Shown here: piece by piece, positions 6,389 to 62,300 of the stretch | Layout of the letters: every line of letters begins with the position of its first letter | How positions within the stretch are numbered: the first letter of the stretch is position 1 | Program-made: the position numbers and the translations under genes | The notes under the pieces: model-generated | What the model saw: the letters and a program-made list of their open reading frames with translations, nothing else | What the model was told of the DNA's origin: nothing | Database searches by the model: none | NCBI GenBank assembly: GCA_017506865.1 | Contig: JAFCMP010000127.1 | Coordinates: forward strand, 62,001 to 126,000 | Source of the DNA: Tribonema minus | Taxonomy: Eukaryota > Sar > Xanthophyceae > Tribonematales > Tribonemataceae | DNA: 64,000 nucleotides | Direction of reading: 5' to 3'

Positions 6389-9300
6389 TCAAAGTCCATG
6401 CGCTCGAAGGAACGCCGCGGGCTGCTTGGACGGCGCTTTCTTGGCGTACATGGCGCTGGTGGCAAACATGTTGGGCACCAGCAAGTTCTGCGCGCGCTGC
6501 GCCACGCCGCTGAATGTTGACTTGGCGGCTGCTGGCGCCTGTAGAGCGTCAGCGCGCAGCAGTGCAGAATCGATGGGAGAGCGTCAAGCAGTTGCCGATG
6601 AGAAAGAAACATCATTTCCCAGTCACCAGCAGGCGTACGTGGCTCAGCCTACTCGAGTCCACAAGCATCAGGGATGTACTGCAACTACGCTGGACGCCCC
6701 CTCCCTCACCAAGTTGAATGCGTTGTGTGTGTGTGTAGCGCAGTTCACCCTTGTGATGAGAAAGTCATTCGTTTCCAGTCATCCAGGTGGTCCAGCAGGC
6801 GTACTGGCTCAGCATACTCAAGTCCACAAACATCAGGGGGGTACTGTATTGACGTTAGACCCCCCCCTCCCCCCCCCCCCCCTCACCAAATTGAATGCAT
6901 TGCGTGTAGTGGAGTGGAGTTCACTTTTGTGTCACACTGTACACACTGAAGCAGCACCATGCTGCAGGAGCGGTGGTTTGCAACAATGTACCGGTGTACG
7001 ACAGTCACGTACTTGCCGCTTGTGGCACGCGCAGAGATGCTCTCAGCAGAAAAGTGCACGCAAGTCGTTCAAGGCTGGGACTGTTTCACCGGACGGTCAC
7101 ATAGATTGATCTGCATCAATTTTAGCTCGTTTGGTACACCATGACATCGTCACGTTACTTTCACGTGCAAGCGGATCAGGCCATGTACCGATAGAGTCAT
7201 CAGTGTGGCAAGCCTACCTGCACCTTCAGTGAAACACTGTTTTACTGAGCTATGAAGCAGAGAGAGAGAGGGCATCAGCTCCCCAGGCAGTAACACAAAC
7301 GGCCTTTTCCTAGCAAGAAGTATATAGAAAGCGCAGAGAGAGGACAGCGCTCGCGAGGCGCTATTCCAAACAGGTGTCGCGCGGCGACTGCGGAGCCACT
7401 TCGCTTGGCCAATCCCGCCAATGGCACATGCATACCCCGCAGCTTGCAAAGGCAGAGAGGAACAGCGCCCACCTTCGTCGCAAGGCCATGGTACCTACGT
7501 ACCGTGACCCAGCCCATGTGACGAACCTCTGCGCTACGCCGGGGTTGTACATGATATAAGACGGGCTACCTTCGAAGTTGGTGGCGCATTGGAACTGAAA
7601 AGCTGCTAGATGGGGGGAGGTCTTACACGCCATATGACTCGTAAGACGGGCTACCTCAGGAGTTTCTGGCGCATCGGAACCGAAATCTGCTAGACAGGCG
7701 GGGGGGGTCTTATCACCATTTTATTCGATCGTTACCGACGCCGTAGCTCACAGAGGCAGAGAGGAATAGCGCGCACCTTCGTCGCCTCAGTACTTGCCCT
7801 GTCGCAGGAGCGCGCTTCCGATCTGAGCTTCATAGAAAGCGGAGGGAGAGGAGCAGCAGCTCGCGAGACGGTATTCCAAACGGCGGTCGCGCGGCGACTG
7901 CTGAGCCAATTCAACCCTCCAGATGCCAACAGTAAGTACTTACCACATAGCTCACAAAGACGGATAGCGCTTACCTTTGTCGCCGCGCCCTTCGCCGGCT
8001 GCAGGTTGTTGACGTGGCTCTGGTAGCGCTGCTGCGCGCGCGCCACATTCGCGCCGCCGCCGCCGCCGCCGCCCGACGCGTCCTGAGCGCTGGGGCGAAT
8101 GCTCAGCGCCGCGGCGGCGGCAGCGCCGATGCCGCCGCTGCTGCTGCTGCTGCTGCTGCTGCGCTTGAGTGCCTGCACGCGCATGCGAGAGTAGGGTTGA
8201 GACAAGGGCTAGGACGCCGTGCACAGCGGGGGCGGAGCAAGTTCGTGTTATTGCTTCCGGCGAGCAATGGCAGAAGCCGAGCTCAAAGGTGTTCACGGCA
8301 CCTGTTGGACAAGTAATTGAAGTTCTACCAAGCAGTCGAAGTTTCCTACTGCGGTGTTCACACTTTACTGTTGTACGTGTGATGATTGGCACAGCTGCGC
8401 CGCGAACTGCTGACTCAATCGGCCACGCTGCGCTACCCAATCACGGGCGCTAAAGCGCCGCACTGCCCTTCGTCGCAATGGCAATCTCGCCTGCCTCTCA
8501 CATCCAAAAGCGCTGTTTGTATGGCTGACTTTTGACGCCGCAGCGTGGACCGATAAAAGTGCTCAATGTGCATTCACCTTGGCTGCAGGCTTTGCAAACA
8601 GCGGCGCGTTCTCAGCGTCGTCGCTGGGTCGCTTCTGCGGCAGTACCCCCCACGTCGTCGGTCCCGGCGCAACTGCCGCGGTGCGCCGCCTGGCCTCGGC
8701 GATGTGCTCTTGAAGTTTCTCCTGCTCCTGCCGCAGGCGGTGACTCGCCTGCTTGAGCTGCTGTGTCAGCGACTTGACCTGGTAGTCCGCCTGGATCGAG
8801 TCAGAGTCAGGGTCAGGGCAGCGCCACAGTGTACACGGCAGGTTGAGCGCGGGCAGACACGGAAGTTCAAGTGTGAAGTTCAAGTCTGCACATACATGTG
8901 ATACCGGAAAATGAGAGCTTTGAGGAGAGAAGTACATGGACGAATGGACAAGGCTGGTGCTGTGCCGGGGCAACGCCACAAAACAGCACAAGCTCTAAGT
9001 GGAAGTGTCATTCCGCGCCATCTTCTAGTAGCTCCCAATCAGTTTTCACACATGTTGGAGAGTCCGATAGGACAGTAACATTTGCAATATCGCTTTAGCA
9101 ATGATGTGTTTCTTGTGCATCCTGCGGAAAATGCCAGTTCCCAACGAGTACCACGTCAGACACAACAATAAATTGCAATTCAAATACTTCGAACAAATTT
9201 GACGCGGGAGAGTCACACCTCTTCCTTGGCTGCTGTCAGCTCCAGCTTCTGCTGCTCCAGGGTCAGGTTTGTCTTGAACAGCTTCTTGTACTCCCCCTGC

Positions 9301-12300
9301 TGGTAGCTGCGTCGGGAGACGGACGGCAGCAGAGTTGAAGGTTCCACGAGGTCACGTGCACAGCGGCTCGCGCCCTGCTCAAATTAATTTTGCAGAAACG
9401 AGTTCTGGCGACTCACGTCTGGTCGCAGTGCTGGTGTCGCGCAAGTGTGCCAAGAAACACGCTCGCAGCACGCTTGTGAGGATATTGAAGTTTTGATGTT
9501 GAAGCTCCTTGCGGGTGCTGGGGCCAATGAACTGTGGCGACACCATGGCAAGTGCTCAGTCAGGCGAGAAGCTAGGTGTTCAAAGTTGAAGTTGGCTTCA
9601 TTCGACAGGTCATGACCAATGGGTTCTGCGCATGTTGTGGGGCGCCAACATCAATGGCCGCACGACATTTGGCGATCCAGTGTAACTTGACTAAATTCCT
9701 GTCATCTCTGCATGCAGTCCATCATGCATGTGGTCTGCACCTGAGCATCTTGTGCTGCTCCGAGGCGAAGGTGCTCCAGCTCTTGCCGCCCGCCATGATA
9801 TTGGCAGTCGCCTAGCAACGGCAGAGGACACGCAGCGACGGACCAGGACTAGGTGAGTACCACCGTTACATATACATTGGTGGTGGTGCCGCTTCAACTT
9901 CAAGTAAACACCACTCATTCACCCAGCCAGCTGCAGCATGCCCAGGTGCGGTGAGCGGCAGCCCTGTGTTCAAGCGCAATGGACTTGCAGACATCACATA
10001 GAAGCGCTCAACGACGGACAGTATGCGCCCACTACCTGCACGTTCGGGACAACTACAACATATAGGTCAGGCGACGGGTGCCATACTGCGACTATCCCTG
10101 CAGAGGCGCTGGCACATAAATTACAGTGGACCGTCTGGAGACACCCGCGCACAGTGCGAGCACGTGCTGATCGCTGCTGCAGAGCCAGCAGAACCGAACC
10201 CTACCCCTGACCTTGACACTAAGCCATGCGCTCGACGGTCCACGTGCACCAGCACATGCCAAAGTCACAGCGCAGTAGACTCCTGAGCGGCGCCATTCGC
10301 AGCACGTCCGGCGCACGCGTTACACAGACCCACGCGCAATCACGGAGATTGGCGTGAATGGATGTTAGTGGTCGATGTGCGTGCATGATCGTGGCACGAA
10401 TGACGGTAGACGCTCACTTAGGGTTAGGGCTAGGGCGTGGACGCGCTCAGAGGCAGCGCTCGCCTCCGCACGCATTCGGTTTTGGCCAGTACAAAGAGAC
10501 GATGCTCAAACGTACCCACACATCCCTACATACATACCTGCAAAGCGCACTCACGCATAACTCGCGCGCGTATATTCGCCAGCATTGAAGGCAGCGCTCA
10601 GCTTACAGCAGCACAAAGCGCTAAAAGCCGCCGCTCCGCTTCGTGTTCGCCAGGTGTGGACTTGGACGGCGCGATGATGATCATACAAACATACGTACCC
10701 CTGTGCTGTTGCGCAGACTTGCCTGCGTGAACTGCGGGTCGAGGCTGGTGCAACAGCCGAGACGCTCACGCAAAAGCGTGGGCGCGCGCGCAGGCAGCGC
10801 TCAACTCAGAGCCACCACTCAAACCTCAACTGGCAGGCATGGGCGTGGCCGGCGCAACGATGCTCATACCTACTACCATTACATACAGGGGGGGTCACGA
10901 TATAAGAGCGGGTCCGTCCCGCCAGCCTCACCGCTCTTATACTGTGACCGCTCCTATATCGTCATTGTGCTTAACCAGGGTTAGGGCTAACCCTAGGCTA
11001 ACCCTAGCCCTAGACCTGGGGTTCGGAGTAAATAATCTAGGGTGAGTGTGCCAACAGTTAAAGTTGATTAATTAAGCCGGAAAGCAACCGCACCGTGCGC
11101 TATACGCTGTGACTGATCGGTACGCGCTTGAGCGTTGTTGAATATCACGCAGAATCCGCTGCTCAGGCATCGTTCGAGAGGCGTCAAGTGGTAGGTGGGC
11201 ACGATATAAGAGCGGTCTGCCCCGCGCTGCACCAGATCGCTCTTATATCGACCAGATCCGTGTTCCGCCATCAGACCGCTCTTATACTGTGACCGCTCTT
11301 ATATCGAGCGCTCTTAAATCGTGACCCCCCCTGTATGCGCTGACCTGCGTGAACTTGAGGTCGAGGCTGGCGTCGCCCGCGCCCACCGCGTCCACGAACG
11401 CGCGCAGGTAGCCGTCCTGCTGCTGGCGCTGGCGCAGCGCGCCGATGTCCGACGCGAGCCGCTCGCTGCGCCGCCGCTCGCGCAGCAGCTCCTTGTCCTG
11501 CGCGCGCGCATCCAACATGACAGCAGCGCTCAGCACAGAGGTTCGCTGCTCGGCAGGGCGGAATACGTGAGCCAAATTTCATGTTCTGGACCTCCATGTC
11601 CTGCCGCTCGCTGCGCCAGCGCTCGCGCAGCAGCTCCTTGTCCTGCGCACGCGCATCCAACATGACAGCGGCGCTCAGCACAGGGGTTCGCTGCTCGGCA
11701 GGGCGGAATACGCGAGCCAAATTTCATGTTCTAAGCCTCCATGTCCTGCCGCTCGCTGCGCCGCTGCGCGCGCAGCAGCTCCCTGTCCTGCGCGCGCGCA
11801 TCGAACATGACAGCAGCGCTCAGCAGAGGGGTTCAACGCGCGGCAACACAGGATACGCGAGCGCGCAGCAGCTGCTTGTCCTGCGCGCACGCGTCATGAC
11901 AGCAGCGCTCAGCAGATGGGTCTACACGCGGCAACGCAGAATACTCGAGCCGGTATTGCATGTTATGCACCTCCCTGTCCTGCCCCTGCGCAGTTGAGGA
12001 TAAGGCAATGCTCAGCAAAGAGCGCCCGTGCCGGCGACGCCCCACCCGCTGCATGCACTATGTCTGTTCTCCGTGTTCTCCGTATGCAAAGCGTTCCGCT
12101 GCGCCGGCCCCCGCCGCCAGACGGCATTTTCCTTGCGAGCACCGCAGCACTTACAAGCTGTGGCGTCATTTGCTCACAGACGAGCACACTGTGCTGCCAG
12201 CACTGGACGCGGCAGTGCTCAGCAAAGAGCGCCCGCGCCACAAGGCGCTCCGCCCAGACACTCTCCGTTTTCTCCGCGTCCAACGCGTTCCGCTGCGCCG

Positions 12301-12538
12301 CTGCCCGCCACTACGCGTCACTTTCATCGCGAGGGCCGCAGCACTTAGAAGCAGTACCATGATCTCGCAATCAACGAGTACACTGTACTGCCAGCACTGG
12401 ACGCGGGCGGCAATCAGCCGAGTGCGCCCGTGCCATGATGCTCCGTCAGTGCAAGCGCTCTCCACCCTCCACGCGTCCACCGCGTTCCACCGCACTCAGC
12501 TGTACCGTCATGTCTCAGTCGACAAGTTCACGCTGCGT

Positions 12539-12582
<44 letters not shown>

Positions 12583-15239: not shown

Positions 15240-18200
15240 CTACTTGGTCACGCCGTAGTACCTGTTGGCGAGCGCCTTGTACTGCTCCATGAAGAAGAAC
15301 ATAAGCACCGTGTGGCCGCCGCTGCGCACAAAGTACGGCGTGAAGCCTTTCCAGAGGGAGCGCGCGCCCTCCTCGCGCGCGATCGCGCCGACCGTCTGCA
15401 GCATGCCCGTGTACTTGAGCGGCGCGCCGTCGCGCGCGCGCGCCTGCCCCTGCATGCGCGTCTTGGCCGTGTCGAGCGGCAGGCTCGCGTAGCTGTAGAC
15501 GACGGCGGCGGTGAGCGCGGCGACGGTCTGCGTCGCCGCGCCGTCGCCGAGGATCGGCAGCAGCGACGTCTTGACCTGGTCGTACGTGCCGAGCTGCGTC
15601 GCGCTGACGACCATGGCGCGCGCGACTGCGACGGGGGGGGGGGTAGGTAGGTAGTGTTCAAACAGCAGCGATCAGCGGCGCTGACATGGGGTGTGCGCAT
15701 GCATGAAGTACTCTGGAATCGCAGCTGTATGGTTGCGGGGACGCTGTGCGCTTGCCGAGCATGAATGTGCTTGGGTTGAGTGTGATGACGCACACTGTGC
15801 GGAGCGCTGCACGCACCTTTTATGCACATGAGCTCACCATTTATTTGCCGGAACCACGGACCCTGTGCGCGATCACGCGGGTGTTGCACGATGTGCAGCC
15901 GCGGATGACATCGCAGTGAGGTCTATGGCAGCGAAATAGGATGACCTCTTGCAGCAGGTGGTGTGCAGCCGCGAATGGCATCGTAGTGACGTCTATGCCA
16001 GCGAAAATGGAAGGCCTCTGACAGCAAGGGGCTCATACACTTGGTGATGCCACCAGGACCGATGCGTCCATCGACATCAACTGCTCCACCACAACGCTCC
16101 GACGAGGGATGCGCCTGTAGGGCTACCTTCCTTGCCAGCAGGTGCAACCGGCCCCTTCGGCTCGCTGATCGAGCGCCGTCAAAGCAGGAGAAGTAACTTC
16201 AACATTTTCATCCAACAAGACTTGAAGCGAAGCCTGCCAAATGGCCTACAGTAGCTCCTCGTCGGCGTATGAAGACCCCCTCCTCCTTCGTCACAAACTC
16301 GAAAAACGCGGGTGAGGCTGAAAACTTCCAACATTGCCACCGAGAATTCACTGGGGATGCACCGGCAGGGCTTGCTCCTTCCTCGCTGGTATGCAATGAC
16401 GCCCCAACGCCTTCGTCACGCGCTCAGGCCAACTGCGAGACTTGAACTGCTTCATCCAGCATTTCAACGATGGAATGCACGTGTTGGCCTGGCTTCCTGC
16501 CAGTACGGTACGACGCGCCTCCTTCGCCACGGGCTCAGGCACCGCCACCGCGGCTGCACCACTTCAACAGGTTCACCCAAAAGTTCAACAGGGACGCACC
16601 TGGTGCGCAGGCTCCTCGCCAGTACGTGAGCACGCCCTCCTCCTTTGCCACGCGCTCCACACACACTTCAACTAATTCCATGCATCAACTGCCCATTGGA
16701 GAACCGCTATATACTGCGGCGACGCACCCGTTGGGCTCGCTCCCCGCCAATACGTGAGGCCGCCCTCCTCCTTTGCCCAGCGCCCCACGCCAACCTCAAC
16801 TCTTTCCATGCATACTTCAACTGCTCCGACTGAGAGCTGCAACTGCGGCGACGCACCCATTGGACTCGCTCCTCGCCAGTAGTTGAGTATGAACTTCAAT
16901 TGTTTCAATGCATACTTCAACTGCTCCAACTGAGAACTGCTACGACGGCGACGCACCCCTTAAGCTGGCTCCTCGCCAGTGCGCGAGCACGCCCTTCTGC
17001 TTGCCATGCAACTTCAACTCTATCAATTCATACTTCAACTGTTCCAACTGAGAACTGCTACTGCAGAGACGCACCCTTTGGGCTTGCTCCCCGCCAGTAT
17101 GCGAGCACGCCCGCCTCCTTTGCCACGCGCCCCACACAAACTTCAACTCTGTCAATGCACACTTCAACTGCTACTGCGGAGACGCACCCGTTGGGCTCGC
17201 TCCTCGCCAGTACGTGAGCACGCCCTCCTCCTTTGCCACGCGCCCCAGTGCGTTGAAGACGTTGGTGTAGCCGCGCCGCTCCGCGGGCGGCAGGCGGCCG
17301 TCCGCTTGCATGCGCACCAGGCAGACCTGTCGTGCGGCACGGCGGCGGTTACGGCGGTTACGGCGGTTACGCTTTTTATTGACGTCACCTACCAGAGTCA
17401 GCGTGCGGCAGCTGCCCGTCCGGTTGCATGCGCACCAGGCAGACCTGTTGCGCGGCGTGGCGGCGGTTATGGTCGTTACGCGTTTCGTTGACGTCACTAT
17501 CAGAGTGCATTGCGCTTGTGGCAGCACGTGATCTGGCCTTTGTCGTCTGTCGCTGCAGGTTGGGGTGAGGGGGTTGGGCCACCGCAAGGATGGCAGATTC
17601 GTCAACTAGAACGCAGGCATGGATGGAGGTGACAATTTCTCATCTCAAACTGAGCAGCTCTACAGGACACGCAGAGAGCACATGTTGGAACTCGCCACCG
17701 CCATAGTTGATAGCACTCTCAGGCCAAAACTACAATTCCACTCACTTTCGCTTCAAGAGGCATTGCCCACCTGCAGCAGAGCAGGGAAACAAGCTCGTCG
17801 CCCATGTTGCGTGTTTCAATGGCCGCGCCACCCAGGACCGCTGCCATGGCCAACTTCAAATGCAACTGCAACTGTATCAATTGATGAGGCAGTGCTCACC
17901 TCAATGGGGCAGGTCAGGAAGGCCGCAATGCCGCCCGCCGCCAGCCCCGTCGTCAGCCTGTGCAGCACCGTCACCTGTCAGATGCGGGGCGCGGAAAACT
18001 TCAAGTTGGTGCTTGAACTTCGGCGCATCATGCGGGCCATATGCCATCAGGCTTGGCGCGCCTGAGCGCTGCCGACACACAAAGCGAAGACAGCGAGCTG
18101 AGCAAATGACGCGATACTTCAAGTACATACATACCTGCCACAAGGCCGTGCACAGCGCTCAGCTACGTCTTCATCCCGCCATGCCATATATATATATGAC

Positions 18201-20503
18201 GGTGGCACTGTTTGATTCGTGGCCAATGACTGCAGCAGCGGTGACCACGGTTATTGGTGGAAGGCACTTGCGGCTGACCATCCCTTGTCACCTAGAGCTC
18301 AACGATCTTTTGATTCGTTTTTCACATACATTCGAAAGTATGTATAAGGATATCGTACATAATGCGCGTATACGGACGTGCGGGCGTCACGCGACGGTCG
18401 GAGGCAGTGCCGCTAAACCTGACATCGAGTTGCCTGAAGCGGCCAACCTTCCCGCCGAGCTTTCGCCCCGTGACCTGCGGCACTACTCGCGGACACTTTT
18501 AAAAAAGTTTTTCAGAATAAGAATTACCTCAGTGCCCGGCGGCGCGATGGCCGCCTTGATGATGTCGTACAGCCCGAGGCGCGCTGTTATTTCTTTTTTG
18601 TTTATTTTCATATTTGTTCTTACAATAAGTTGTTACTTTCACTGAAAAAAAAATTATTAAACACCAGAATTACCTCAGTGCCCGGCGGCGCGATGGCCGC
18701 CTTGATGATGTCGTACAGGCCGAGGCGCGCCGTCGTGTACACGGCCTGCCGCGTGATCGCCGCGGAAAGACCCGCGTACAGGCCCCTGTGGCGGCGCACG
18801 TGGCATCGAGAGGCAGCGAAAATGAAAGTTGGTGAACGCGGCGATGGAGCGCGCACTGGGGGGGCGGGGGCATGCATTCGTGCGACATTGAAAGGCAGCG
18901 TGGACGATCGATGGACGCAGCATTGGAGCAGAGTGCGCATGCCGGGGAGGGGGGGAGGGGGCATATCTAATCGTAACCCTGCTAACGCGCATGCAGCCCC
19001 CCAAAAACCTTGTCGCGACAGCCCCCCCCCAAACCTTGGTTCCTGAGAAGAGGTGCCGGTGTGAGTCTCGGGCAGTGCTGCGCATGTCAGGGCAGGGAGT
19101 GCGCGCTACTACGCAGCAGCGCTCGCGCGCGTGATGCACATGTAATCTCCTCTCAGAGACTTCTTGTGACACGTCTCACATCACGCGACGCGGCGGCCGT
19201 GGTGCGTCAGTTGTCACGCAGGAGGAGCTGACCACAGCAGTGCGCATGTAGACTAAGTAAGTAAAGATCTCCCAATGTGCAGCAGCGCACAAGGAAGGGC
19301 AGTGGATGCCATGGAGGATTTCCTCTCGGAGTCTTCCTGACGGCACCCAAAGCAAAATGTCTGTCAAGCGGCCCGGTGGTGTTTGCGTGACCGCCATCGC
19401 GCGGCCAGTGCTGAATGGGATTCAGCGCTGCCAGTGGACATTGTGTGCTCATTCAGCGCTGAATGTCCATTTTCTATGTATTGAGTACGCCATAGTTATT
19501 GACTTGATGGAGCTAAATTCATTTACAAGAGATTGTGGAATAAAAACAGACCCGCCGCCCGCCGTGCTGCTGGACGCCTGGCGTACGCTGTGGGTTCGTC
19601 AGCCTGGTGATGTACACTCCACATGTACGAGTCTACAATGGACGTCCATACTACGTGGTTGACGGCGTGTACCACGTGCCTACCACATCAGCAGTCGCGT
19701 ATGTATGTGACAGTCACGACTTTGACAGGCCCGACTTGATGTTGAAAAGAATATACTATGCATCAACAACAGGCAGCCTAGTGCATTGTCACTACTCAGA
19801 GCTGTTGTGCCTCGTTCAACGCCTGGGCACAAACTTCATGTGCCTGGACTGTTTGAGATGTATTCCTGCACAGACGCAGACTAATGTGCGTTTCGCATTG
19901 TCAAAGGCCAGAATTCGCCACCGCACACGTCTTGGACGCTAGTCAATTTGTTCATGAATGCATGCACATAGGCACATGTTCCTTGTCTGCGTCATGCTGA
20001 CCATGGCATGCGCACGCGATCTGACGTTTGATTTTTGCTAAGCTATGCAATATATATATCAGCAAGCAGAGTTAGATGTCTCACTTGACTCCTTGTGTTC
20101 TGCGAATTTCATTGAAAGCCATGCTGGCTGTTGTTTTAGCACCGGAGTTCCCCAGCAGCTGCATGCGGACCTGCAAACACCACGTACAAGGAAAGGCTGA
20201 GGTTGACGCTGCTGCTGTGCTGGCGCGATCTCACATGGTTCGAGCACGCATGAGACACACACACGCGCCATGGTGGGATGCTAGCCACTCTTCAATGAGG
20301 GATGTATATTGCTGTCTTTTGCGAAGGATGACTTCAGCATCGCATTGTACACAGGCATGGAGTGCCACAGAGTGACACTCACTGTCTGATGTGTTCACCT
20401 TGATAAGATCCGCAGGGTGGATGAACATCCACGCGCTGATGCCGGACGCGCCGGCGACGGCAAATGTGGCCGCCATCGGGACCTGAGGCTGCGGCGTAGA
20501 CAT
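15240..20503 (-). CDS. Mitochondrial 2-oxoglutarate/malate carrier (SLC25A11-like), six exons
   Basis: Exons on the minus strand: 20503-20399, 20170-20085, 18785-18674, 17974-17900, 17326-17188 and 15625-15240. The joined 903 nt encode exactly 300 residues, the usual size of this carrier. The three mitochondrial-carrier signatures appear in order: HPADLIKVRMQ, CPIEVCLVRMQADGR and LPLDTAKTRMQ. Family hallmarks of the oxoglutarate carrier are visible in LYAGLSAAITRQAVYTTARLG, RRGYTNVFNAL, EEGVLTYWRGASPTVARAMVV and LWKGFTPYFVRSGGHTVLMF. The protein should exchange 2-oxoglutarate for malate or other dicarboxylates across the inner mitochondrial membrane. Each junction was fixed by AG/GT plus homology, for example ACGG joined to TCGCG giving SPTVARAM. 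Introns 3, 4 and 5 carry partial copies of the flanking exons. Plant dicarboxylate-tricarboxylate carriers are close relatives, so the exact substrate range is inferred. Confidence 0.93.
16220..17187 (-). repeat. Array of about eight partial copies of carrier exon 5 donor edge
   Basis: The last 60-70 bases of exon 5 plus the start of intron 5 recur about every 100-130 bp: near 17065-17140, 16945-17010, 16855-16890, 16725-16790, 16590-16655, 16490-16545, 16365-16420 and 16235-16300. Read on the minus strand, the nearest copies still spell KEEGVLTYWRGASPTG-like peptides followed by GTGCGTC. Between copies lies a spacer rich in CTTCAACT and TCCAACTGAGAACTGC. Confidence 0.85.
17405..17465 (-). 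repeat. Partial copy of carrier exon 5 acceptor edge
   Basis: The sequence CAACAG, GTCTGCCTGGTGCGCATGCA (minus strand) repeats the true boundary at 17326, 135 bp further upstream in gene sense and with the AG intact. Adjacent intron sequence (CGGCGGTTA.GG..TTACG, TTGACGTCAC) is duplicated too. Confidence 0.85.
18524..18594 (-). repeat. Partial copy of carrier exon 3 donor edge
   Basis: The last 60 bases of exon 3 with its donor (CACTGAG, GTAATTCT) are repeated almost perfectly 150 bp into intron 3. One substitution is visible in the CAGGCCGAGG/CAGCCCGAGG stretch. Confidence 0.9.
19562..19942 (+). other. Unidentified open frame inside a carrier intron (opposite strand)
   Basis: A plus-strand frame within carrier intron 2 stays open to 19942 and reads from about 19595 FVSLVMYTPHVRVYNGRPYY and on through VDGVYHVPTTSAVAYVCD, with a Cys-x2-Cys (MCLDCLRC) near the end. 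Composition is balanced and non-repetitive, unlike most chance frames here, and GC is lower than in neighbouring exons. I do not recognise a family. It could be a remnant of an inserted element or a nested gene. No convincing start or splice context was found. Confidence 0.3.
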
Positions 20504-27467: not shown

Positions 27468-27768
27468 GACAGAAGTGCAAGCGCTGCTGCGCGTCCACTA
27501 AGCTGCTGCGTGCAGCAGCAGCTGCAAATTCTCCAACGGTCATATTTTGTCCCGTGCAAGATGACACGTGGGCGGCACTGCAGAGGGTGCCACGAGGCCG
27601 CTGCAGTTGAGCGCAGGCTTGCGCTTCTGTGCTTGTCGCCATGGGTACAATCGATACCACCTGACTGGATGCGGATCAAAGGCGCGGCGGTACACTTCAA
27701 TCTTCATAGCTTGGATGGGTTTCGGTTTTGGAGTGCGCTTGTTGCTGGTGCTATTGGCCCAGCACTGC
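27468..27768. promoter_or_regulatory. Putative shared promoter of two divergent genes
   Basis: The starts of the coiled-coil gene (27467, minus) and the ubiquitin-like gene (27769, plus) are 301 bp apart, so both upstream signals must lie here if the start codons are right. No TATA box or other named element was identified. Confidence 0.35.
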
Positions 27769-30716: not shown

Positions 30717-33700
30717 ATGAGCCGGGATGCGGCAGCGATGGCAGCACCGAGGTGCCCCATCAAGCGCATTAGTCAGACCCTCAGCCTAGGTGTCTTCTAT
30801 ATGCACATCCTGCTGCTGCTGAGTTTCCTGGGCATCGCCACCGCGAGGCGGGCGGAGGGAGTTGCAAATGGCGCCTGGTCCAAGTGCCCCATCTCCCGCC
30901 GGCTCACAGCCTTCCAGCCCTCTAACGTGCCTGGCCTGCGCCAGCAGCAGAGTAGTACAGCCACCTTCACGCATAATCGCTCCCCAGCTCTGTCTCTCAG
31001 GAGCGAAGCATCGGCCAGGCGACGGCGAGCTCGTCCCACTTGGATGAGCGCCGTGGAGGACCAGCAAACCACTGTACAGGCGCCGAAGGTCGCAGCAGCC
31101 GCTGCCGCGGTCAACAAGGTGGCAGCCGCCGCTGCAGACGCAGGCAGCAAGAAGGCGAAGCGCAAGGAGAACAGTACCGCCCCCCTGCAGGTCCACGTGA
31201 TCGGCTTGAGCCACCACAACGCCGCATTGGAGGTGCGCGAGAAGCTAGCCGTGCCGGAGGCGAACTGGAACATGGAGTCAGAGGCGCTGTGCGAGCAGGA
31301 CAGCATCGTGGAGGCCGCGGTTCTGTCCACCTGCAACCGCTTCGAAACATACATTGCAGCTCACGACGCCCACGCAGCCATCCGGGAAACCATCGCGCAT
31401 CTGCAGCAGCGGTCTGGCCTCAGCCAGGCCACCCTGCGCCGCTCTCTCTTTATTCTCAGCGGGGAGGATGCCGTCTGGCACTTGTTGCGTGTGAGCGCGG
31501 GGTTGGACTCCTTGGTCGTCGGCGAGGGGCAGATTCTCAGCCAGGTCAGTACCCGTTATTTTCTGACCCGAAAGCTATTACAAGCAACTCAGTATTGATG
31601 TGTCCCGGCCCGATGCATCGGCGCACCCGAGCCCCCCGAGTCAGGCGGCAGTGAGCTGCTCGAACTGTGCGCAGATCTCAACACCTTTATATTCATGTCC
31701 TCACAGCTAATGCGTCTCTTACTGCAGTATGGCAAGGAGATATGTTCAGTTGAGAGAGATTCCAGAACATTGAGAAAGGTTAGCGGCGATAAATGAGTGT
31801 GTGATATAGTGAGTGCATCTGGATTGCTATGTAGCAGCGGAGTTGTCGTGCGCTGGTGCGCGCGTGTGGGCCTGCCGCTGCTGCTCTTCCTCAAACATCT
31901 TTGTTTGGCTTAGCTTCATATGCACACATTCGGACCATTCTGTAGCTGTTGCACACATCGTACAGCTGCATGTGCGCTCATGAATTGCTGCGTGAAGCGC
32001 GCTCGCAGCAGGTGTCCCAGTTGTCGGTAAATTTCATAGTGTGTCTGTGCAGTGATAATTTGGAGTGGTCATGCTCGTTGATGGATGGCTTGGAAAACAG
32101 TAGTGCGGTCTTCAGATGCTAGCGCAAGCAGGTGCTACATACGACACAAAACTCAAGAGTAGCCTTTGCCATCTCGCCATATTCATGCAGAAGTATACAT
32201 GTATGTATTCACTCCACTCATCCCGATGTTCACAACTAATATCGGTGTGGGCACGAGATGCCCCACCGTGATGTGCAGCGAGTGCTCAAGAGCTTCCATA
32301 TTCATGTAGGCCGTAGATGGTATAACTTGCGTCAACAGTTATTACAGGTTGGTATTCTTGCAACACGTGGCCTACACTCCATCTCATGAGATCTATTGCG
32401 TGCATTCTCACACGCCTTTCAAGGTCCATTTTTTGATAGGAGCCTGTAGCTGAATCAACACAAGGACTTCACCGGCTGCAAGTGTCTACACTGCTGTTCT
32501 TTGTGCAAGCATCAATTTGGGCAACAATCTACCGCTCATGGCAATAGCACTGTACAATCATTGAGTGGGCCTGTTGTACAGCTTGCACAGCCCCTAAATC
32601 AGGCATGTGTAACAACAGCACAAGCACTCTACACTACGACCTGGACCGTCAATAGCAGGCGTCCAATAATGCATCGAGCTCCGCCGCCGTGGCGCAATGC
32701 CGTCAGCGCTTCTGCTGCGGCACCAGGTCTTTGTCAGCAGGGGCGCGTGTCACGCACTGCCTTGAGCACCACGCCACTTTAACCATGGAGAACGGACGTG
32801 AAGGATCTGCGCTGCCAGTGGAAGGGCCCCCAAGGGGGGGGGGGGCTTTCGCCCGCGCGTCCCCTCACTGGTGTGCGCAGGGGCGTGCCACGCGGTGCTT
32901 TCAGCACCACGACGCTGATCATGCAGACCCTGCAACAAAGACGCGTAGCGCCCCCCCCGTTGCACGCCACAACAAGGCTGGCACTTACAGAAGCCCGCCG
33001 CCCGGCACGTCTGCACAGCTGCTGTCCGCCGCCGCGCCGCCCCCCAAATTGCACAACTTGAAGAAGTTGATACCCCCCCCCTCCCGGCGCCGCGCCGCGC
33101 TGTCGCTGCAGGTCCGCCAGCGCCATCTGCACGGCCGCCGTGTCGTCCAACTGCATAACCTGAAGTTGACATCCCCCACCCACGCTCCTCGCGCCAGTGC
33201 CCCCACCCCCAGTTCATGTTTGCATAGTAGCGTGAAGTTGAAGTCATCAAGGACTCAAAGGCTGCAAGTGACTAGTCGCACTGCTGCTCCCTGTGCAAGC
33301 ATCACCTTGGCAGGCAATGATCTACCGCTCTTGGCAATGGCACTGTACAATTGTTGCGTAAGGGCCCCTGTACTAGAGCTTGCACAGCCCTTCAATGAGG
33401 CATACGCCGTGACAGCATCAGCTATCTACACTGCAACCTGCACCATCAATAGTAAGCGCCAATACGTTCCAATATCCCTGCGCTCTTCCGCGCCACCAAC
33501 TCCAACCGCACCATCGTTTGCAGCACGCAGCGCGTGCGCATTGCGCTCCGCCGCCGTGGTGCGGCATTGCCAGCGCCACTGCCGCGCGGCACCAGGCCTT
33601 TTTCAGAAGGATTGCGCGCCTCGCTCTGCCTTAAGCACCACGCCACTTCGGCCATGGAGAACAGACCGCCCGCTGCAAGCAGAGGGGGCCGGGGGGGGGG

Positions 33701-36182: not shown

Positions 36183-38341
36183 GCGTTCCGGTTTAGGGCC
36201 AGGGTTAGCTAGCCCTAGTTGATGCACTAGGCGCGCGCAGGGGGGAGCAGCGGCGCCGCGGGTTAGGGCCAGGATTCGCTAGCCCTAGTTGGTGCACTAG
36301 GCGCGCGCGCGCGCTCGCTCGCGACCCTCGAGACCATGTTCCGCCTCGAAAAATAACTCAATTGACTGGGTGCGCGAAGGGGGGAGCAGCGGCGGCGCGG
36401 CGTAAGGCCAGGGTTAGCTAGCCCTAGTTGATGCAGGGGTGTCGGAAACCCTGCGCTCGTGGGTCTTGCGGGTCGCTCACGCGCGCCAATGCGCGGTCAG
36501 TGTTTGCGCGCCGCTGCCGGCGGGGCGCGGGCGACTCCCATGTATGTACACTTATGAGGGTATGTAGGCATTGTCCGCTTTTCCAGTTTCCGCTCACACA
36601 CACACATGCACGCTGAGAATTCGCTTGCCTTGGGGCTCCTTTGCATCAATGGTTACAGGCGATTACATAGTACCTGCCCACGCAAAGGGGGTTTTCATGG
36701 CGTGTTCCGCTGTCTTGTCCCCCTTTCCTGCGCCGCTGCTGCTGTCTGTTTCGTCGGTATGCGCTGTTGTGATGGCAGTTCTGGTGATGGGGTGTGCCGC
36801 GTGTACGTACTGTTGCGGTGCATGTGCGCGTGTGCGCTGCGGCGCTCCCGAGCGGTGATGCGCCACGCGCTTGTGGAGCACTGCTCAATGGCATGCTGCG
36901 CGTACCAATTGCGCTGGAGGCTAAGTTCAATGGATGTTCAAAGGCGTGACGCTCCAATGCACGTGGGGCCCTTGCATGTGCAAGATTGCGATGATCAGAC
37001 AGCTCTTGCTTGGGGCAGCGTCCGGTGTAGCAGTTTACCTCCAGAAGTGTCGTACTTGAGGTAGCGGGCGTGTAGCTGGCCGTTAATGCCTTGACACAAA
37101 CAAATTTGTTTGTAAAAAATACACATGTTGTGATGTAATGTGCTCACGTTGGAAATACCGAGAAAAATGGCATCCATGTTCTGTGCAGTTGAAGTCTCTC
37201 GTGTTGATTCTTGCTTATGGCGCGAAAAAGCCCAGTTAGTGATCACGATGTTCAGCTTCTGCTGTCAGAATCCGAGTCATTTGTCAAAAACTTGAAAGCG
37301 TCTGTCTCAATGCGCTCTGACGTCACTTTTAGACGGCACCGGCAAATAATGTCATCTCCCCCCTCGTGTTCCGTATGTGCAGTTCAAGCAGGGCAACAGA
37401 GCGTGCACCATGACATAGGTCGCTGATGCATCTGTTAAGAGACAGGGTGCAGCTTGGCGTCTTGTTACAGTCACACGGCCGCGCGTTTGTGCCAGCAAGC
37501 GTCACTACAGTGTCATCACGAAACTATCCACGACGATGGGGGGCCCTTAGCTAAGTGGCATCGCGCAGAACTGCACTGCCACAGCGCGCGGCGCTCAAAA
37601 ATCTGCCTTTGTCTGTGGCTGCAGCATTGGATGCCCCCCCCCCCCCCCATATCCTCAACACCAAACCTAGATACTCCCCATCCCATCCACACGCACAACA
37701 CATGCACTACGCGCAAATGCCACTTCAGATTCAACCCCCAGATTCACCAACACAGGCGGATACACCAAAACACGAAGATCTGTGTGCACGGCGGCACGCG
37801 CGCGTCGCATCGCGCTGCGTAGCATCTTCCGCGGCGCGCGGCGGCGGCGTTGGCGGCGGGGTAGCGGCGGTGGCGGCGGCGGCGGCGGCGGTGGCGGCGC
37901 TGGTCGTGAAACAACATATAGCAGAGGTCGATTATTCTGCGTCTCTGATCACTGACGTCAGGTTGCGTCTACTCCGCTGCGTGGCGGTGAGAACTACACT
38001 GCAGGCGACGGACAACGAGGAGGAGGGGGGGGGGGGGGGGGGGGAAGGCGGGGGGGGGGGGTGCCTTCTTGATCGCATCAGGTCTCGTCCGCGCCTGCAC
38101 ACTGGCATACGCATCTGGATCGCGGCACCACTCACTGATGGCATACTCTCGGCCGCTGCCGGTCGCTCTGTGAGTCAGTGTGGGCTCAGAAGCCTTGAAG
38201 GCGAGAGGGGGGGGGGGGGGGCAATGAGAGGGGGGGTCTGGGGGGTGCCTTCACAGGGGACCATCCCTCCACCAGCTGCATCTACATGACAAATGTGCTC
38301 TGTCGCTGCCGCCGGCCCTGAGGGCTCGGCTGTCACCTGCA
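36183..38341. other. Intergenic between convergent genes, with reductase 3'-end copies
   Basis: At 36190-36440 a block with GTTAGCTAGCCCTAGTTG and GGGGAGCAGCGGCG is repeated three times. At 36318-36356 a copy of the reductase C-terminal codons (GAGACCATGTTCCGCCTCGA) ends in an early TAA. A fragment like the end of the 48.8-kb transposable element lies at 37203-37240. Long G runs occur at 38025-38062 and 38207-38222. No gene is supported. Confidence 0.55.
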
Positions 38342-46400: not shown

Positions 46401-48419
46401 TAGGGCTGACATTCAGTTAGCGCGATAGGGGGGTGCGGTGCACATGGGGGTGTGCTTGCTGAGCATCACCTGATACGACGATGCCTTCCACACGCAACGT
46501 GGCAACGCACCCAGGGTCGCGTCAGATGCTGACGTGTGCGCACACCTCATGGCCGAAGTCGCGGCACAGCGCATGCCCTCCCTGCTGGCTCGACCAAGCC
46601 CCCTTGTCAACGCTGACCAATGACACGGTGTGGTTAGCTGTCAAACTGTGTGCCCTCCACCAATAGCCGTGCTACATACGGTTTGCTAGACCGGGCTGAG
46701 GTGCGCGCACTTACCCCTGACCCTAACCCTACCCCTAACCCTAACCCCCCTTAACCCCCTGACCCACCTGATGGAGCGTCGCCTCCAGCGCGTACGACGT
46801 GATCCACTCCGGCCGCTCGAGCGTGCTGTTGAGGTTCCAGTAGCGCCCACCGACGCTGCGCACCGCGAACCAGTGCGCCTGCCGATTGCAGACAAACCCC
46901 GCCTCCGAGTCGTAGCCCGTCGTGCTCAGCTTGCCCGCGACGCGCTCGCTGCCCGCGGACTCCAGACGCAGGCCGTAGCGCAGCGTCAGCGCCTCGCTCA
47001 GGACCTGCACGGACGCAGCGCCATGCACGCGGAGTTCTAGTGGTGTCACTGAATGTGAAGTTGAAGCTGAAGCTGCCCGCCGCCCGCGACGCGCTCGCTG
47101 CCCGCGGACTCCAGGCGCAGGCCGTAGCGCAGCGTCAGCGCCTCGCTCAGGACCTGCGCGGGCGTTATTCACGCGAAATTCTGTTGGTGTCAATGCACGC
47201 ATGGGAAGCTGCTGAAGGTGAAGTTGAAGTTGAAGTTGCCTGCCGCCCACGACGCGCTCGCTGCCCGCGGACTCCAAGCGCAGGCCGTAGCGCAGCGTCA
47301 GCGCCTCGCTCAGGACCTGCGCAGGCGTGCCATGCGCGCGACGCTCTGTCGCTGTCAACGCGCGCACGCGAGCCGCGCGAGCACTCAGCGATGCGGGGGA
47401 TGCAGCTGTCGCGCGCGCCGTGGCTGCCTTGAGGCGCGCGCAGAGTGAATGTGAAGTTGAAGTTGAAGTTTCCCGCCGCCTTCGCCCAGCCGCGGTCTGT
47501 GGCGCATATTGCCCGGTCGGCGCGCGTGGGCCGGCATCGCGAGCGAAGCGCGCGCAGAGCGGTCGCTGTAGTCGAGCGCGAACCTCAGAAGCACGCGCCG
47601 CAGACATGGTGTCACGGAGCTGTTTCGCGCACGCGCGCGCACGCGTGCGGGGTCAAAGTTCAAGTAGAAGTCAGAGCAAAGCGCCACCGCGCCTCGCTCA
47701 GCACCTGGTGAGGTCACGCGCGCCGCCACCCGCACGCAGCGTGTTCTTGTTCGCGCGCGGCTGCTTGCACACAGCGCGCGCAAAGGTACTTCCAGCACAC
47801 AGACATGGTTGACACGCGCTGCCAGCGCGCTCGCACCTGCAGTGAGAAGTTCCCCGCCTCGTCCACGTTCCCAGAGTCCTCCGCCTGGAACTTGAGCGCG
47901 TCCGGCGTGCTATGGCCAAGCTCCAGCATCAACTGCGAGGGGCACCCCGTGTTTGTTTTTAAGGCAAGTCCCTGTGACGATTTTTCAGGACACCACTTTG
48001 GCCTGAGCTAACACAGAGGAAACGCGGTAGTTCAGAGCGGGAGTTCCTCACGCCACGAGCTGTAAACGCGCAGCAAGCAATGTCATCACAGGCCTGATGC
48101 AGCACAACCGCGGGCTAGTTCTGTCTGGAACTTGAAGTGTGAGGCCTTACTGATGCAGAACAGGTGAGAGCGGCTACCTGTCTCTCCTTGGCGTCAAGCA
48201 CATGGGCGATGTCAGCCAGATCCGGTGCTGTGAATATGCAAGCCTGCGGCAAGGAGCACAGAGCCGCGCAGAGGGGCAGACTGATCTCAGTTTTCTATAG
48301 AAGATGTCAGCACGTTTGCAAGCGGTGCTCGGTGCTCGACCTTGTACCTGCAACAGATTGTTGAGGCAGTGCTGCCCGCACAGAGAGCTTTCTTGCTTCT
48401 CGTGATAGATCCAACCCAT
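43495..48419 (-). CDS. ATXN3-like: Ataxin-3 type Josephin deubiquitinase with UIM and UBX-like domain
   Basis: Exons on the minus strand: 48419-48348, 48227-48178, 47932-47837, 47004-46768, 46165-46062, 45469-45204, 44334-44273 and 43728-43495. The Josephin catalytic set is present: Gln9 and Cys14 in HEKQESSLCGQHCLNNLLQ, His in RQAHWFAVR and Asn in YWNLNSTL. LADIAHVLDAKERQLMLELG, DSGNVDEAGNFSLQ and GYSVFVVRGG are further family blocks. Exon 6 carries a ubiquitin-interacting motif (EDQELAQAIALSLMDQG). The last two exons form a UBX-like fold (VRVQVRLPSGRAVRRFKSEA, then GTFASEGLGGASVMVRL). The protein should trim ubiquitin chains, perhaps with Cdc48/p97 through UBX. Exon 1 ends in phase 0 but exon 2 needs one extra base, so a micro-exon of 3n+1 nt between 48348 and 48227 (the GxYFxA region of the family) is missing from this model. 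Confidence 0.88.
44486..44530 (-). repeat. Degenerate telomere-like CCCTAA tract
   Basis: CTAACCTAACCCGAACCTAA and similar units in ataxin-3 intron 6. A second, poorer tract lies at 44617-44655. Both are interstitial. Confidence 0.65.
46711..46760 (-). repeat. Degenerate telomere-like CCCTAA tract
   Basis: TTACCCCTGACCCTAACCCT followed by further CCCCTAACCC units, ending 8 bases from the ataxin-3 exon 4 donor. It therefore forms the very start of intron 4. Confidence 0.65.
47060..47710 (-). repeat. Partial copies of ataxin-3 exon 4 acceptor edge
   Basis: About 80 bases of exon 4, from its acceptor through CTGCGGCTGGAGTCC and GGCAGCGAGCGCGTC, recur at about 47080-47165 and 47245-47330. The CAG acceptor (GCGCAG, GTCCTGAGCGAGGCG) is intact in both. 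A short third copy of the acceptor region is at about 47685-47710. Each is followed by GAAGTTGAAG tracts. Confidence 0.88.
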
Positions 48420-53652: not shown

Positions 53653-53720
<68 letters not shown>

Positions 53721-53948
53721 GTGGTGGTGATGGTGCTGCTGTTGCGGTGGCTGCTGTTGCTGCCGCCGCTGCTGCTGCTGCTGCGGCGGCGGCTGCTGTG
53801 GCGGCTGCTGTGGCGGCTGCTGGTGGCGGTGCTGCACCTGCTGCTGCTGCTGCTGTGCCAGGGCCGCCGCAACCATTGCACGAAACTCAGCGGCCACATT
53901 GGTTTGCTGGCGCTCGAGTGTGCGCCGAGGTGTGCTGCCAGCCAGGTG

Positions 53949-53979
<31 letters not shown>

Positions 53980-54025
53980 AGCTGCGGCTGCTGTGGCGGA
54001 GGCGACGGCGGCAGCGGCGGCTGCA

Positions 54026-54063
<38 letters not shown>

Positions 54064-55313: not shown

Positions 55314-56383
55314 GCTCGGCGCCGCCTGCCGCGCAAGCGCCGCCGCTTGATGCTCGGCGCCGCCTGCCGCGCAAGCGCCGCCGCAGCCGTTGGCGGTGGC
55401 AGCACAGCAGTGCTCCTCGTGCCGCCGGGGCTCTGAGCGCTGATGCCAGCCATGATATCGGCAAGAGGGGCCCGCCCTGTGGGGGTTGGAAAGGGAAAAA
55501 CTGCAATTAATACTGGGCGCACAAGCGCTCTTTGTCACATGCTGGCTGCACGCGCGCAAGTGCGGACAAGTCATGGGCAGCTGACACACGGCAAGACAGT
55601 AGATGTCGCAGTGCTCACTAAACAAGTAGATCTGCCGGGGAGCATAAAGTAGCCCGGGCCTTTCCTCTAGTTCGAGTGACCTGACCCCAAAGCAGCAGCT
55701 GATGGCTTTTCAATGGAATACTTCTTCGAAGTATACAGCATGCAAAAAGTCTGACATGCCCCGTGCCTGGCTGCACAGTTTCGCCACATCAGCTAGTGCT
55801 CAATGACGCACGGCTCAGCAACAGCGATGCGCCGCTCATCTGACATGACGGCGGTCAGAGGCAGCACCATTGCGTCCCAAAAACCGGCGCCGCTCGGCAC
55901 TCGCCAGAGTGGCATCTCGATGGAGGGTCCTGTCACATGCCAAGTGGGGGGGGGGGGGTAACGTGAATGCGTCAGAGCGCGTCTGTGGTAGGGTTGAAGG
56001 CATTCTGTGTGCTAGGGTAAGGTTACAGCAAGGAAAGGTGAGATTGGAGCTCGTGTACATTCGTGCAGCTGGACGAACCAAAGACTCCGAATCTGCCCAG
56101 CGGCACATGCAGCGCACAACATGCATGCACGTTCAAACTACGCAGATGCATGTGCTGCAGCCATGGACCAGCGCTGAGTTGCTGCTCTGAGGGAGGGGGG
56201 GGGGGAGGCGTAGGGGGAGGGCTAGCATTGCAGGTGCTGTTGCGAAGAAAAAGTTGCTGCTCAATATACAGGCAGTACTGCGCAGTGCTGCCACACAGAG
56301 TCAAGGGTAGAGCAGTCAATGATGTTTCATAACTCTCAGGCGTATTTGACCTTGGTTCATTGCACACTTCAGCTCTCGCTTAC
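55314..56383. other. Intergenic, with short duplication near the polyGln gene start
   Basis: A 45-bp segment (TGCTCGGCGCCGCCTGCCGC and following) is tandemly duplicated at 55312-55385. No gene is supported in the rest. It contains the imperfect palindrome CTTCTTCGAAGTATAC near 55721. Confidence 0.45.
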
Positions 56384-59300: not shown

Positions 59301-62300
59301 TCCCAGCACGGCATGCACAACCAGGAAGGTGGCCGCCAGCAGCAGCGGCTGACCTATCTTTGCCGCTCCGCCTTCGCAGGATAACAGAGTGTGCAACAAG
59401 GGTACGGTAAGGGGGGACCTGCTGCACACTTGTCGCATAGAGGTGCTTCAGACGCTCAAATGCCTACACACATGGACACTGGCAGTTGTTGTGCATCCAT
59501 GCCATGAAGCATTAATGCAGCCGCAGGTAGGGTTAGGGTTAGGGTTAGTGGATCTACTGGATCATACTTCTATTCCAGCAACAGATGAGTGAATGGCACC
59601 ATAAGGCAGGGCAACAGCTGATTCATCAGAGAGCAGCAGCTACAATCGCCGGCACTTCAAGTGAGTGATTTGCTCGGAGCTCCCTCAGCAGGGTCTGACC
59701 GTCAGTGCTGCTGTGGTGCTACTTCGAAGTATCATTTCACTTTGCAATAGAAGTATATATCCGTAATGAGGCAGTTGTAGCGCCGTCCATGTCTTTGTAA
59801 ATGCAGTATGTGCCTCGCAAGGAAGAAAGTGAAAGTGGATGTTTACTCACTGTTGTGCAAGTTGAAGTCGATAAGATACAGCGCACATTTGCAGTCTCAC
59901 CTGCGAACCCTGCGACCACAGGTTGACCCGCCGCCGCAGTGACGTCCTCTGCAGCGTCCGGTTGTGGAGAGCGCACTGCACACACAAACAGTAAACAGAA
60001 TTCAGGTAAGCGTCTGTCAACTACAACACAGCTTCACTGCATCATCTGGTTGCGCAAACTGCACTGCACACAGAATCGGGAAAGAGTATCGAGGTAAGCA
60101 TCTGCCAATTAACAGGGATGTCCGCTGCGAAGCCCGGTTGCGGAGGGTGAAGTGCATGCACAAGGCAATCAAGTGTGCTTGAGGCATATGTATGATACCT
60201 CCGGAATTTCAACGCTTGAACTTAAATTCGAAGACATGGGCTCCGCTGCGTTGACTATTCAGACGCGTCAAGCATGTAACTCCCATATTCTCGGTCATCC
60301 ATGTGCATACAACTGTTTGTGCGATTCTCAGGTGTGCCCACATGCATACACGAATTCATGTTGCAAAGCGTGATGTATAAGTTGTGGCAAGCATAGGCCT
60401 GCTTGCCAATGTGACGGTGCAGCACTGCTCAACAGGTATTGTGACGCGCGCAAATGGCGCAGCCCTGCACCGGTGCCTGCACCGAGAGCTTGCAAGTTGC
60501 ACCACTGCTGTGCACATTACTACATCTGAGCACATGTAAGCAGCACATGGGCAAGCAAAACATTGTGACTTGCCAAATGCACATCAACTTCAACTTCAGC
60601 AGCTCAAAGGGGCACTGCTCAGCGGACACGCCGACCGAGCGCGTCGCTGCGGGCCTTGTACTTCTCAGGGTGCAGCGCACAAGTGCGCATGCGCACTGAA
60701 TTCAATACTTCAAAGTACATCCATAGAGAAAGCCCAACCCCTGCTGTCAAGGAAGTGGAAGTTGAAGTGATGCAGCGCTCAGCTGCTGAGGTGACTCACC
60801 AACGAGCGCGCTGCTGCGGGCGGCGGCGGCGTCCATGTCGTGCAGTCCCAGCGCCCTGCGCATGGCGTCCTCCATCCAGCGCCGCACTCCCCACACTGCA
60901 GTAAGCAGCAGAGTCCAACAATTGTGTGTGTCAGGGGCGTTGATGCTTCTACAGGAGCACTGCGCAGTCAGGCAGGATGCCGTCGTCCGAAATCGCTTGA
61001 AATATACACATCTCCTCTCCTTATTCAATGCTGTCTTGTGACAGCGGAGCTAGACTCGGCGCATTTGCACACGTGCTTATCATGTGTATTCTGCTGGCTT
61101 TTGTAAGCATGTGCCTGTGCAGGCCCGGCGCCCCGACACCACCTCAGACGCCCTCGTGCAAGCCCCAGTCAGCGGTGCTGCGCTGACCTCGTTGGATGGT
61201 CAGCAAGCACGGAGCCTTGCCTTGGTCGCTACATTTGGGCCCCTTGCCTCTGCCACCGAGTGAGCACCGTTTCTGGTGGTCGTCGAGACCAAGAGCAATG
61301 GGGACGTGACTCGGCAAATCTAGGATCTGGCGTCTCTACTTGGTGAGTCTGGCGTGCCTTGTGTGTGATATCTTGTTTGTGATATCTAGGCACGCCAGAC
61401 TCACCAAGTAGAGACGCCAGGTCGGAGATTTCCCGAACCACATCCCCATTGCTCTTGGTCTAGGAGACAAGGAGAATCGGCACCAAACCGCAGCAGAGGG
61501 GAGGGGCCCGAATGTAGCGAGTAAGGCAAGGCTCTGTGCTAGTTGGCCGTCCAATGAGGCCAACACAGCGCCGCTGACTGGGGCTTGCACGGGGGCGTCC
61601 GAGGCAGCGCCACTGGGGTGTTGGGGCGGCTGCGCAGACGCATACGGTATGTACGCACAAAAGGCAGCAGAAGACACTTGAAGAGCATGAGCTTGCGTGC
61701 AGACGCGTCGAGCTCCGCTGTCACAAGACAGCTTTGAATAAGGAGAGGAAATGTGTACTTGATGTATATTTCGAGCCATTTCGGACGACGGCAGCTGCAA
61801 TGAGAGCGCACCGTTCAGGGGCGGCAACACAGTCAACATCATCTAAAGTACTTCAAGTCCGCACTGAAAGGTGCCGCCGTTTCGCAAGAAGCCGAATCTG
61901 ACAATCTGCAGGGCGGTGCGAGCACAAGTGCTGTCGCAACTGGGAGGCATGCAGAAGGCACTGGCTGCATGTTCATCTTCCTTCCTGAGATGCAGCAGAG
62001 GAGCACTGTGAATGACACGGACCGTGCTGACTTGCACAACGCCCGTGAAGCTGCAAAGACGTTGCAATTTCTTGAATTGAGAAATTGACCAGTCCCAAAG
62101 ACTTATCCCATAGTGAGGTATCATGAGGCAGGACCAAACTTGAGTCATGAAAGCAAGTACAGCTGCATGCACGATGAAGACGTTGCTGTGGAGAACCACA
62201 GTGAACTTCACCGCAAACAGCGCGCTGTGCTTCCAGACCAAACTTTGCATTGCCTTTTCAAAATTGTTTGTACCATCGCATATGAACTACACATACGCCT

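Follow-up and report, generated by a model that had tools for sequence, protein, structure and literature searches.

Partial copies of exon edges in introns of Tribonema minus are consistent with recurrent local duplication across exon-intron junctions

Introduction

Why should introns carry partial copies of the edges of their own exons, most of them with the splice dinucleotide preserved? The question is raised by a 64,000-nucleotide stretch of DNA (hereafter the window) that spans positions 62001-126000 of contig C127 in the genome assembly of the xanthophyte Tribonema minus (158.18 Mb in 554 contigs). The host assignment agrees with three genes of the window, encoding GluTR, a mitochondrial carrier and a RING protein, which match T. 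minus proteins P0002, P0121 and P0241, respectively. A previous sequence-only reading of the window described partial copies at eleven or more junctions and called the effect systematic, naming slippage at junctions or selection for splice-buffering arrays as its possible causes. The analysis described here showed that the exon-edge effect recurs in many of the genes sampled but not in every one. The explanation towards which we lean, as somewhat probable, is recurrent local duplication, in the same direction, of segments that cross a live exon-intron junction, followed by neutral decay of the buried copies.

Results

Copied exon edges in the window

Exon limits of the GluTR, carrier and TRAIP-like genes were set by the T. 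minus proteins P0002, P0121 and P0241, the last being the protein named TRAIP in the sequence-only reading; GluTR introns were placed by hand using P0002 and a string match. A strict junction test demanded a single copy covering the junction with at least 8 bp on either side. Of the eleven edges, eight proved to be splice junctions clearly accompanied by copies close by, two were weak cases and one was a stop codon:

11458..11987, minus strand: TRAIP-like gene, exon 3 acceptor; array of ~145-bp units with copied acceptor and exon start (exon 3 at 11345-11545 according to P0241)
7434..7785, minus strand: TRAIP-like gene, exon 7 donor (exon 6 of the earlier description, matched by coordinates); the edge at 7975 possibly copied at 7738-7785 and 7434-7481; weak
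18501..18733, minus strand: carrier exon 3 donor (true GTAATTCT from 18673) and decoy 18501-18587; pair 18501-18587 / 18647-18733, 90% identical
17280..17506, minus strand: carrier exon 5 acceptor (exon start 17326) and copy 17398-17506; pair 17280-17398 / 17398-17506
16589..17247, minus strand: carrier exon 5 donor, with five decoys within intron 5
33052..34009, plus strand: GluTR exon 2 acceptor (exon start 33986) and copies 33797-33864 and 33052-33135
34238..34556, plus strand: GluTR exon 2 donor (34285), with decoys at 34424 and 34534
35646..35882, plus strand: GluTR exon 4 acceptor (exon start 35820) and decoy 35646-35717
36125..36435, plus strand: end of the GluTR coding sequence and 3′ untranslated region (stop TAG 36180-36182), with a copy of the coding end inside 36311-36435; no splice junction
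46933..47366, minus strand: ataxin-3-like gene, exon 4 acceptor (~47004), with two decoy acceptors (period ~149/163)
59949..60111, strand unassigned: exon C of a putative modular gene, weak pair 59949-60023 / 60037-60111 (offset 88 bp)

Seven junctions passed the strict test: the exon 3 donor and the exon 5 acceptor and donor of the carrier gene, the exon 2 acceptor and donor and the exon 4 acceptor of GluTR, and the exon 3 acceptor of the TRAIP-like gene. The eighth clear edge lies in the gene that we take to be ataxin-3-like, a putative family label adopted from the earlier name, and both of its decoys carry CAG. The weak copies at TRAIP exon 7 are visible in translations and as a mutual pair (85%), fall below the threshold when compared with the true edge, and belong to arrays that were classed as interior in the array classification given below. 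The modular-gene pair is 75% identical (50.9 bits), with GGTAAGC present in each copy. The 3′ edge of GluTR was identified as a stop codon, as both P0002 and P0001, a GluTR encoded by a 2,184-base metagenome contig that is presumably transcript-derived, terminate with ...EKDLID.

Of 105 junction queries, 30 matched within their own intron and none matched the intron of another gene (0/105; 52 introns plus ataxin-3), which excludes chance; the carrier and TRAIP acceptors were one base off in this test, as in the orientation and nearest-decoy runs reported below, while the window tests used the correct positions. Judged from the sequences, an assembly duplication would not yield copy identities of ~67-98%.

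Occurrence beyond the window

Exon positions in loci outside the window were taken from the carrier, proteasome and kinesin families. Ten loci were selected by the number of exons found with hidden Markov models (HMM exons) alone, before any repeat search; eight of these contained local duplications and seven contained junction-crossing arrays. The full sample comprised 52 introns of 20 genes: 32 in the first set, eight in the second and 12 in the window. Introns kin141-3, psm223-1 and car423-1 (the last without a splice call) and two arrays marked "x" were left out before counting. From the second set, non-contiguous HMM-exon pairs were removed, and edges beyond complete introns (kin190 exon 1 and two kin520 edges) were not counted. 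Alignments and arrays from one gene are not independent of each other.

Genes with junction-crossing arrays are spread over ten contigs (C127, C25, C549, C141, C180, C516, C30, C36, C515 and C190). Local duplications covered 16.8% of 20 loci (L021-L040), five of which had none, and 2.2% and 1.1% of two random 100-kb samples, scored slightly more strictly. When all were rescored uniformly, coverage averaged 13.6% across the 24 gene loci, 10.6% across eight pieces of the window and 1.5% across 20 random pieces. A coding-potential scan found just 29 of the 52 HMM exons and hence was not used for locating junctions within the random samples. The effect can thus be called systematic in the sense that it extends to ten contigs, but coverage ranges from 0 to 36% among the gene loci and 17 of the 46 classed arrays are interior.

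Five gene loci (L028, L030, L036, L037 and L043) lack duplication arrays, and others reach 25-36% coverage. The CpG observed/expected ratio is greater in duplication-rich loci (rho 0.46, p 0.022, 24 gene loci). GC content was considered as a cause of duplication richness and set aside, the correlation being weak (rho 0.24, p 0.25, 24 gene loci).

Orientation, order and decay of the copies

The copies are almost exclusively direct: 128 same-direction and no inverted pairs were detected in 24 gene loci (L021-L044), and 51 and one, respectively, in the window. Twelve junctions have two or more decoys; the best score belonged to the nearest decoy in ten of them, to the farthest in one, and was tied in one (p 0.012). 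The decay with distance described previously is therefore borne out, the nearest copy ranking first in all but one of the 11 untied arrays. Some arrays are clean head-to-tail repeats, such as the 145-bp array of TRAIP and the ~149-bp array of ataxin-3.

In 43 alignments, identity amounted to 0.884 in the exon part (1,773 bp) and 0.755 in the intron part (4,124 bp), a difference that, from the sequences compared, is one of one-sided versus two-sided decay. Mismatches by codon position in 50 alignments numbered 52/651, 47/640 and 102/637, and 23:31:66 when one alignment was taken for each of 26 junctions. This ratio of about 1:1:2 points to a neutral copy compared with an exon that varies at third positions only. 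The 52:47:102 pattern also speaks against coding constraint on the copied exon sequence, as alternative or mutually exclusive exons would show, with the GluTR exon 4 copy as the exception (7/7 differences at third codon positions). Splice dinucleotides were kept in 77 of 86 cells (GT 11/13 and 11/13, AG 27/30 and 28/30), confirming that copies usually keep the AG or GT. Overall, the copies evolve neutrally, as do minisatellites and other tandem duplications. Decay like that of unused DNA suggests that they are a by-product of a duplication process favouring exon borders and not a splicing device.

Junction-crossing versus interior copies

Arrays in the first 32 introns were classed as acceptor-crossing (16), donor-crossing (8), interior (8) or unclear (2), and eight introns had no arrays. 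In all 52 introns there were 29 junction-crossing, 17 interior and two unclear arrays, a junction fraction of 0.63; the interior share (17/46) qualifies the edge effect.

This fraction was compared with neutral simulations that modelled exon constraint and in which detection was as for the real data. The simulated junction fraction varied with median intron length: 0.31-0.36 at 856-972 bp, 0.43-0.45 at 494-644 bp and 0.64 at 394 bp; the median of the real introns is 879 bp. A second neutral set with longer introns, and with large indels in five of six runs, gave 0.11-0.26, and length-matched neutral runs gave 0.28, 0.30, 0.35 and 0.46 versus the observed 0.63. Favouring junction-crossing events 3- and 5-fold raised the fraction to 0.46 and 0.52.

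Copies were also counted in windows placed by position. They were present in 29/104 junction-centred, 25/104 exon-edge, 2/104 deeper-exon, 14/98 adjacent-intron and 52/420 interior windows. The ratio of junction-centred to interior windows (0.279/0.124) is 2.25; it was 0.50-0.71 in three neutral runs, 1.44 with 3-fold and 1.40-1.65 with 5-fold bias, and the observed value was attained by the 8-fold-bias run alone (2.45). The ratio of adjacent-intron to interior windows, observed as 1.15, was 0.42-0.66 in uniform neutral runs and 0.99-1.63 in 3-, 5- and 8-fold-biased runs. Since the junction ratios lie above the neutral runs, a duplication bias towards junctions likely exists, although its size depends on a simple model. 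Placement is accordingly not independent of exon borders, as it would be for neutral minisatellites, in so far as the simulations are followed; no peak is seen when the intron-only windows are considered by themselves. The preference of copies for exon ends over mid-intron positions therefore held for junction-centred windows, but did not extend to the intron-only windows beside them.

Which splice sites are used

The T. minus protein models of three genes (GluTR, carrier and TRAIP) join the outermost junctions, so that the copies remain within one intron, and P0001 joins GluTR at the same outermost junctions. At one position P0001 reads LQSLGVKEV and the T. minus protein LQSLGIKEV. The decoys retain V, so the GluTR copies may predate a V-to-I change in T. 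minus.

At TRAIP exon 3 (11345-11545), where the acceptor is arrayed, the T. minus model contains 16 residues (RTSVLSAAVMLDARAQ) that are absent from P0242, the protein of a relative, in which ...IKK is joined to DKELL. To judge from this comparison, either the T. minus model is wrong or the arrayed acceptor has shifted.

A separate discrepancy concerns GluTR positions 31074-31118: P0002 lacks 15 residues that are encoded in frame by the window and found in P0001, and the corresponding 45-nt intron of the NCBI model P0002 may be an annotation error. A second T. minus GluTR protein, P0003, is 79% identical and encoded on a different contig.

Other repeats in the introns and the window

Tracts of TTAGGG (counted as 9-mers) are frequent in 40 introns of the gene loci and GluTR (40.2 kb), at ~87 per 100 kb. 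Other repeats of the same composition occur at 0-15 per 100 kb in those introns; TTAGGG tracts occur at 15 and 11 per 100 kb in the random samples and at 0 in 12 kb of exon. Their density tracks duplication coverage (rho 0.46, p 6e-4, 52 pieces; rho 0.49, p 0.016, 24 gene loci). A duplication unit bounded by TTAGGG was considered and rejected: of 26 tracts in introns of the first set, eight overlap copies versus 8.4 expected, and an earlier version allowing ±20 bp gave 9/25 versus 9.4 expected.

AACTTC hexamer repeats reach 32-75 per 100 kb (introns, window and L001-L020), compared with ~3 for units of the same composition. As a breakpoint motif they were likewise rejected (13/23 overlap copies versus 9.7 expected), and they are abundant genome-wide. 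Counts of branch-point motifs by distance revealed nothing clear regarding branch-point conservation.

The region 56337-63329 of the window contains module repeats at ~2.9 kb spacing (56337/59212, 79%; 56631/59585, 67%), with related peptides at 56367, 59214 and 63186.

Discussion

Duplication across live junctions

According to the explanation that we somewhat favour, a local segment crossing a live junction would duplicate repeatedly in the same direction. Each event would preserve the outermost junction, leaving splicing and the protein unaltered, while the former junction copy would be displaced into the intron and decay there as neutral DNA, so that introns would lengthen from their edges. 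The events probably start as tandem duplications, of which a minority of pairs are still clean, and the spaced pairs may owe their form to subsequent change within the intron or to exon-derived local gene conversion. The bias would be mutational, with breaks or slippage concentrated at exon borders, and not selected. More tentatively, exon-intron junctions may, in this lineage, be hot spots at which DNA is duplicated locally, for example through breaks arising from transcription or splicing, with the resulting conveyor, which would recopy the live junction and bury its predecessor, lengthening the introns.

Several results weigh against this explanation. Only 9 of 44 junction pairs align across at least 0.9 of their offset, a figure lowered by pairs of non-adjacent copies, and 12 of 44 do so across 0.7; simulated tandem duplication gave higher shares of clean units, 0.60 without and 0.32-0.46 with large indels. 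Close similarity stops ~4-10 bp beyond the splice site in four of five displayed pairs, and the copied stop-codon edge of GluTR shows that a splice site is unnecessary for copying. Beyond the first 32 introns, five junction-crossing arrays stand against nine interior ones, four of the latter in TRAIP intron 7, where edge copies had been described previously. The junction fraction has a wide gene-bootstrap range (0.42-0.85), and intron-only windows beside junctions have no excess over interior ones (odds ratio 1.18, p 0.61). The random samples contain coding-like segments, yet their duplication coverage is low. For the earlier proposal of slippage or duplication at junctions, direct orientation and the departure from a uniform neutral model argue in favour, but the scarcity of clean tandem units does not.

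Alternative explanations

The edge preference might be only apparent if tandem duplication were uniform and neutral, junction crossers were tolerated and exon constraint prolonged their recognisability. The 17 interior arrays and the missing peak in intron-only windows are as expected on these terms, as are an exon-part divergence of about half that of the intron part and the similar spanning of junction positions (29/104) and interior bases (23.6%). However, simulations that include the constraint reach junction fractions of 0.11-0.46 only (median intron lengths of at least 856 bp) and junction/interior ratios far below 2.25; shorter introns fit better, but the real ones are not short. We regard this account as rather unlikely. 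On a par with the hot-spot proposal, and somewhat less likely than not, is local gene conversion from the constrained exon, refreshing edge copies made by another process so that junction arrays seem younger and more numerous. One kinesin decoy is identical to the exon at 66/66 positions and has an identity of 0.69 in its intron part; together with the spaced pairs, it could reflect local gene conversion confined to the exon part, rapid change of the intron or copying that adds filler. The sharp intron-side limits of several young pairs and the few clean tandem units also suit conversion. On the other hand, the pooled alignments fit one-sided neutral decay, the nearest-best order requires new copies and not refreshed old ones, and conversion does not create arrays.

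Templated insertion, by which break repair would copy nearby exon edges into introns, could explain the unaligned spacer in most junction pairs (35/44 align across less than 0.9 of the offset) and the richness of the introns in short TTAGGG tracts; excerpts of one report describe insertion of such tracts during break repair in primates and rodents (PMC7215372). It is nonetheless improbable, given that no inverted copies accompany the 128 direct ones in the gene loci, that the copies are edge pieces seldom reaching deeper exon, and that the TTAGGG tracts are not located at copies. Least probable is that selection maintains the decoys as spare or alternative sites through which splicing is buffered or varied, the second cause named by the sequence-only reading. 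The AG/GT retention, the third-position differences of the GluTR exon 4 copy and the 16-residue difference at the arrayed TRAIP acceptor could be read in its favour. Yet the retained share of 0.895 lies near the identity of the exon parts (0.884), and mismatches by codon position follow, overall, the pattern of neutral copies, a decay that looks neutral on both counts; moreover, the predicted T. minus models, and P0001 for GluTR, use the outermost sites. The proposal is thus not supported by these comparisons.

Relation to known systems

Intronic minisatellites form direct local arrays within introns, as do the T. minus copies, some of them cleanly head-to-tail. The latter differ in that their terminal unit is a working exon edge, junctions are over-represented and clean tandem units make up only a minority of the pairs. 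Introner elements, like the T. minus copies, are repeated DNA with splice sites in algal introns, but the T. minus junction copies match their own intron only, and no dispersed repeat family was seen across the 52 introns and ataxin-3.

In the potato RdRp gene, as described in excerpts of the report, tandem duplication occurred across an intron-exon boundary and one event yielded a new intron (PMC4974935). There, as in T. minus, the duplicated segment spans the boundary and includes splice signals; unlike there, the T. minus copies remain inside the existing intron, as judged from the three genes that have protein models, and they occur at many junctions and form decaying arrays. A model of intron gain, considered here from part of its text, proposes that tandem duplication of exonic proto-splice sites creates a new intron (PMC2891723). 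It shares with our case a local duplication that provides a ready-made AG/GT, but none of the three T. minus protein models examined contains a new intron.

Significance

In the open literature covered, as far as the excerpts consulted reach, junction-crossing duplication was described for a single gene (PMC4974935); in T. minus it affects many. Searches of that literature turned up no paper on the T. minus genome. These duplications contribute to intron length, making the origin of intron length measurable as a mutation process. They also provide many natural sets of near-identical splice sites within one transcript, in which the choice of the true site is testable (exon definition versus first-come). 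If junctions are indeed hot spots of duplication, each affected gene would record the history of its own splice sites in neutral, dated form, and the arrays would offer a natural test of how the spliceosome chooses the outermost among near-identical sites.

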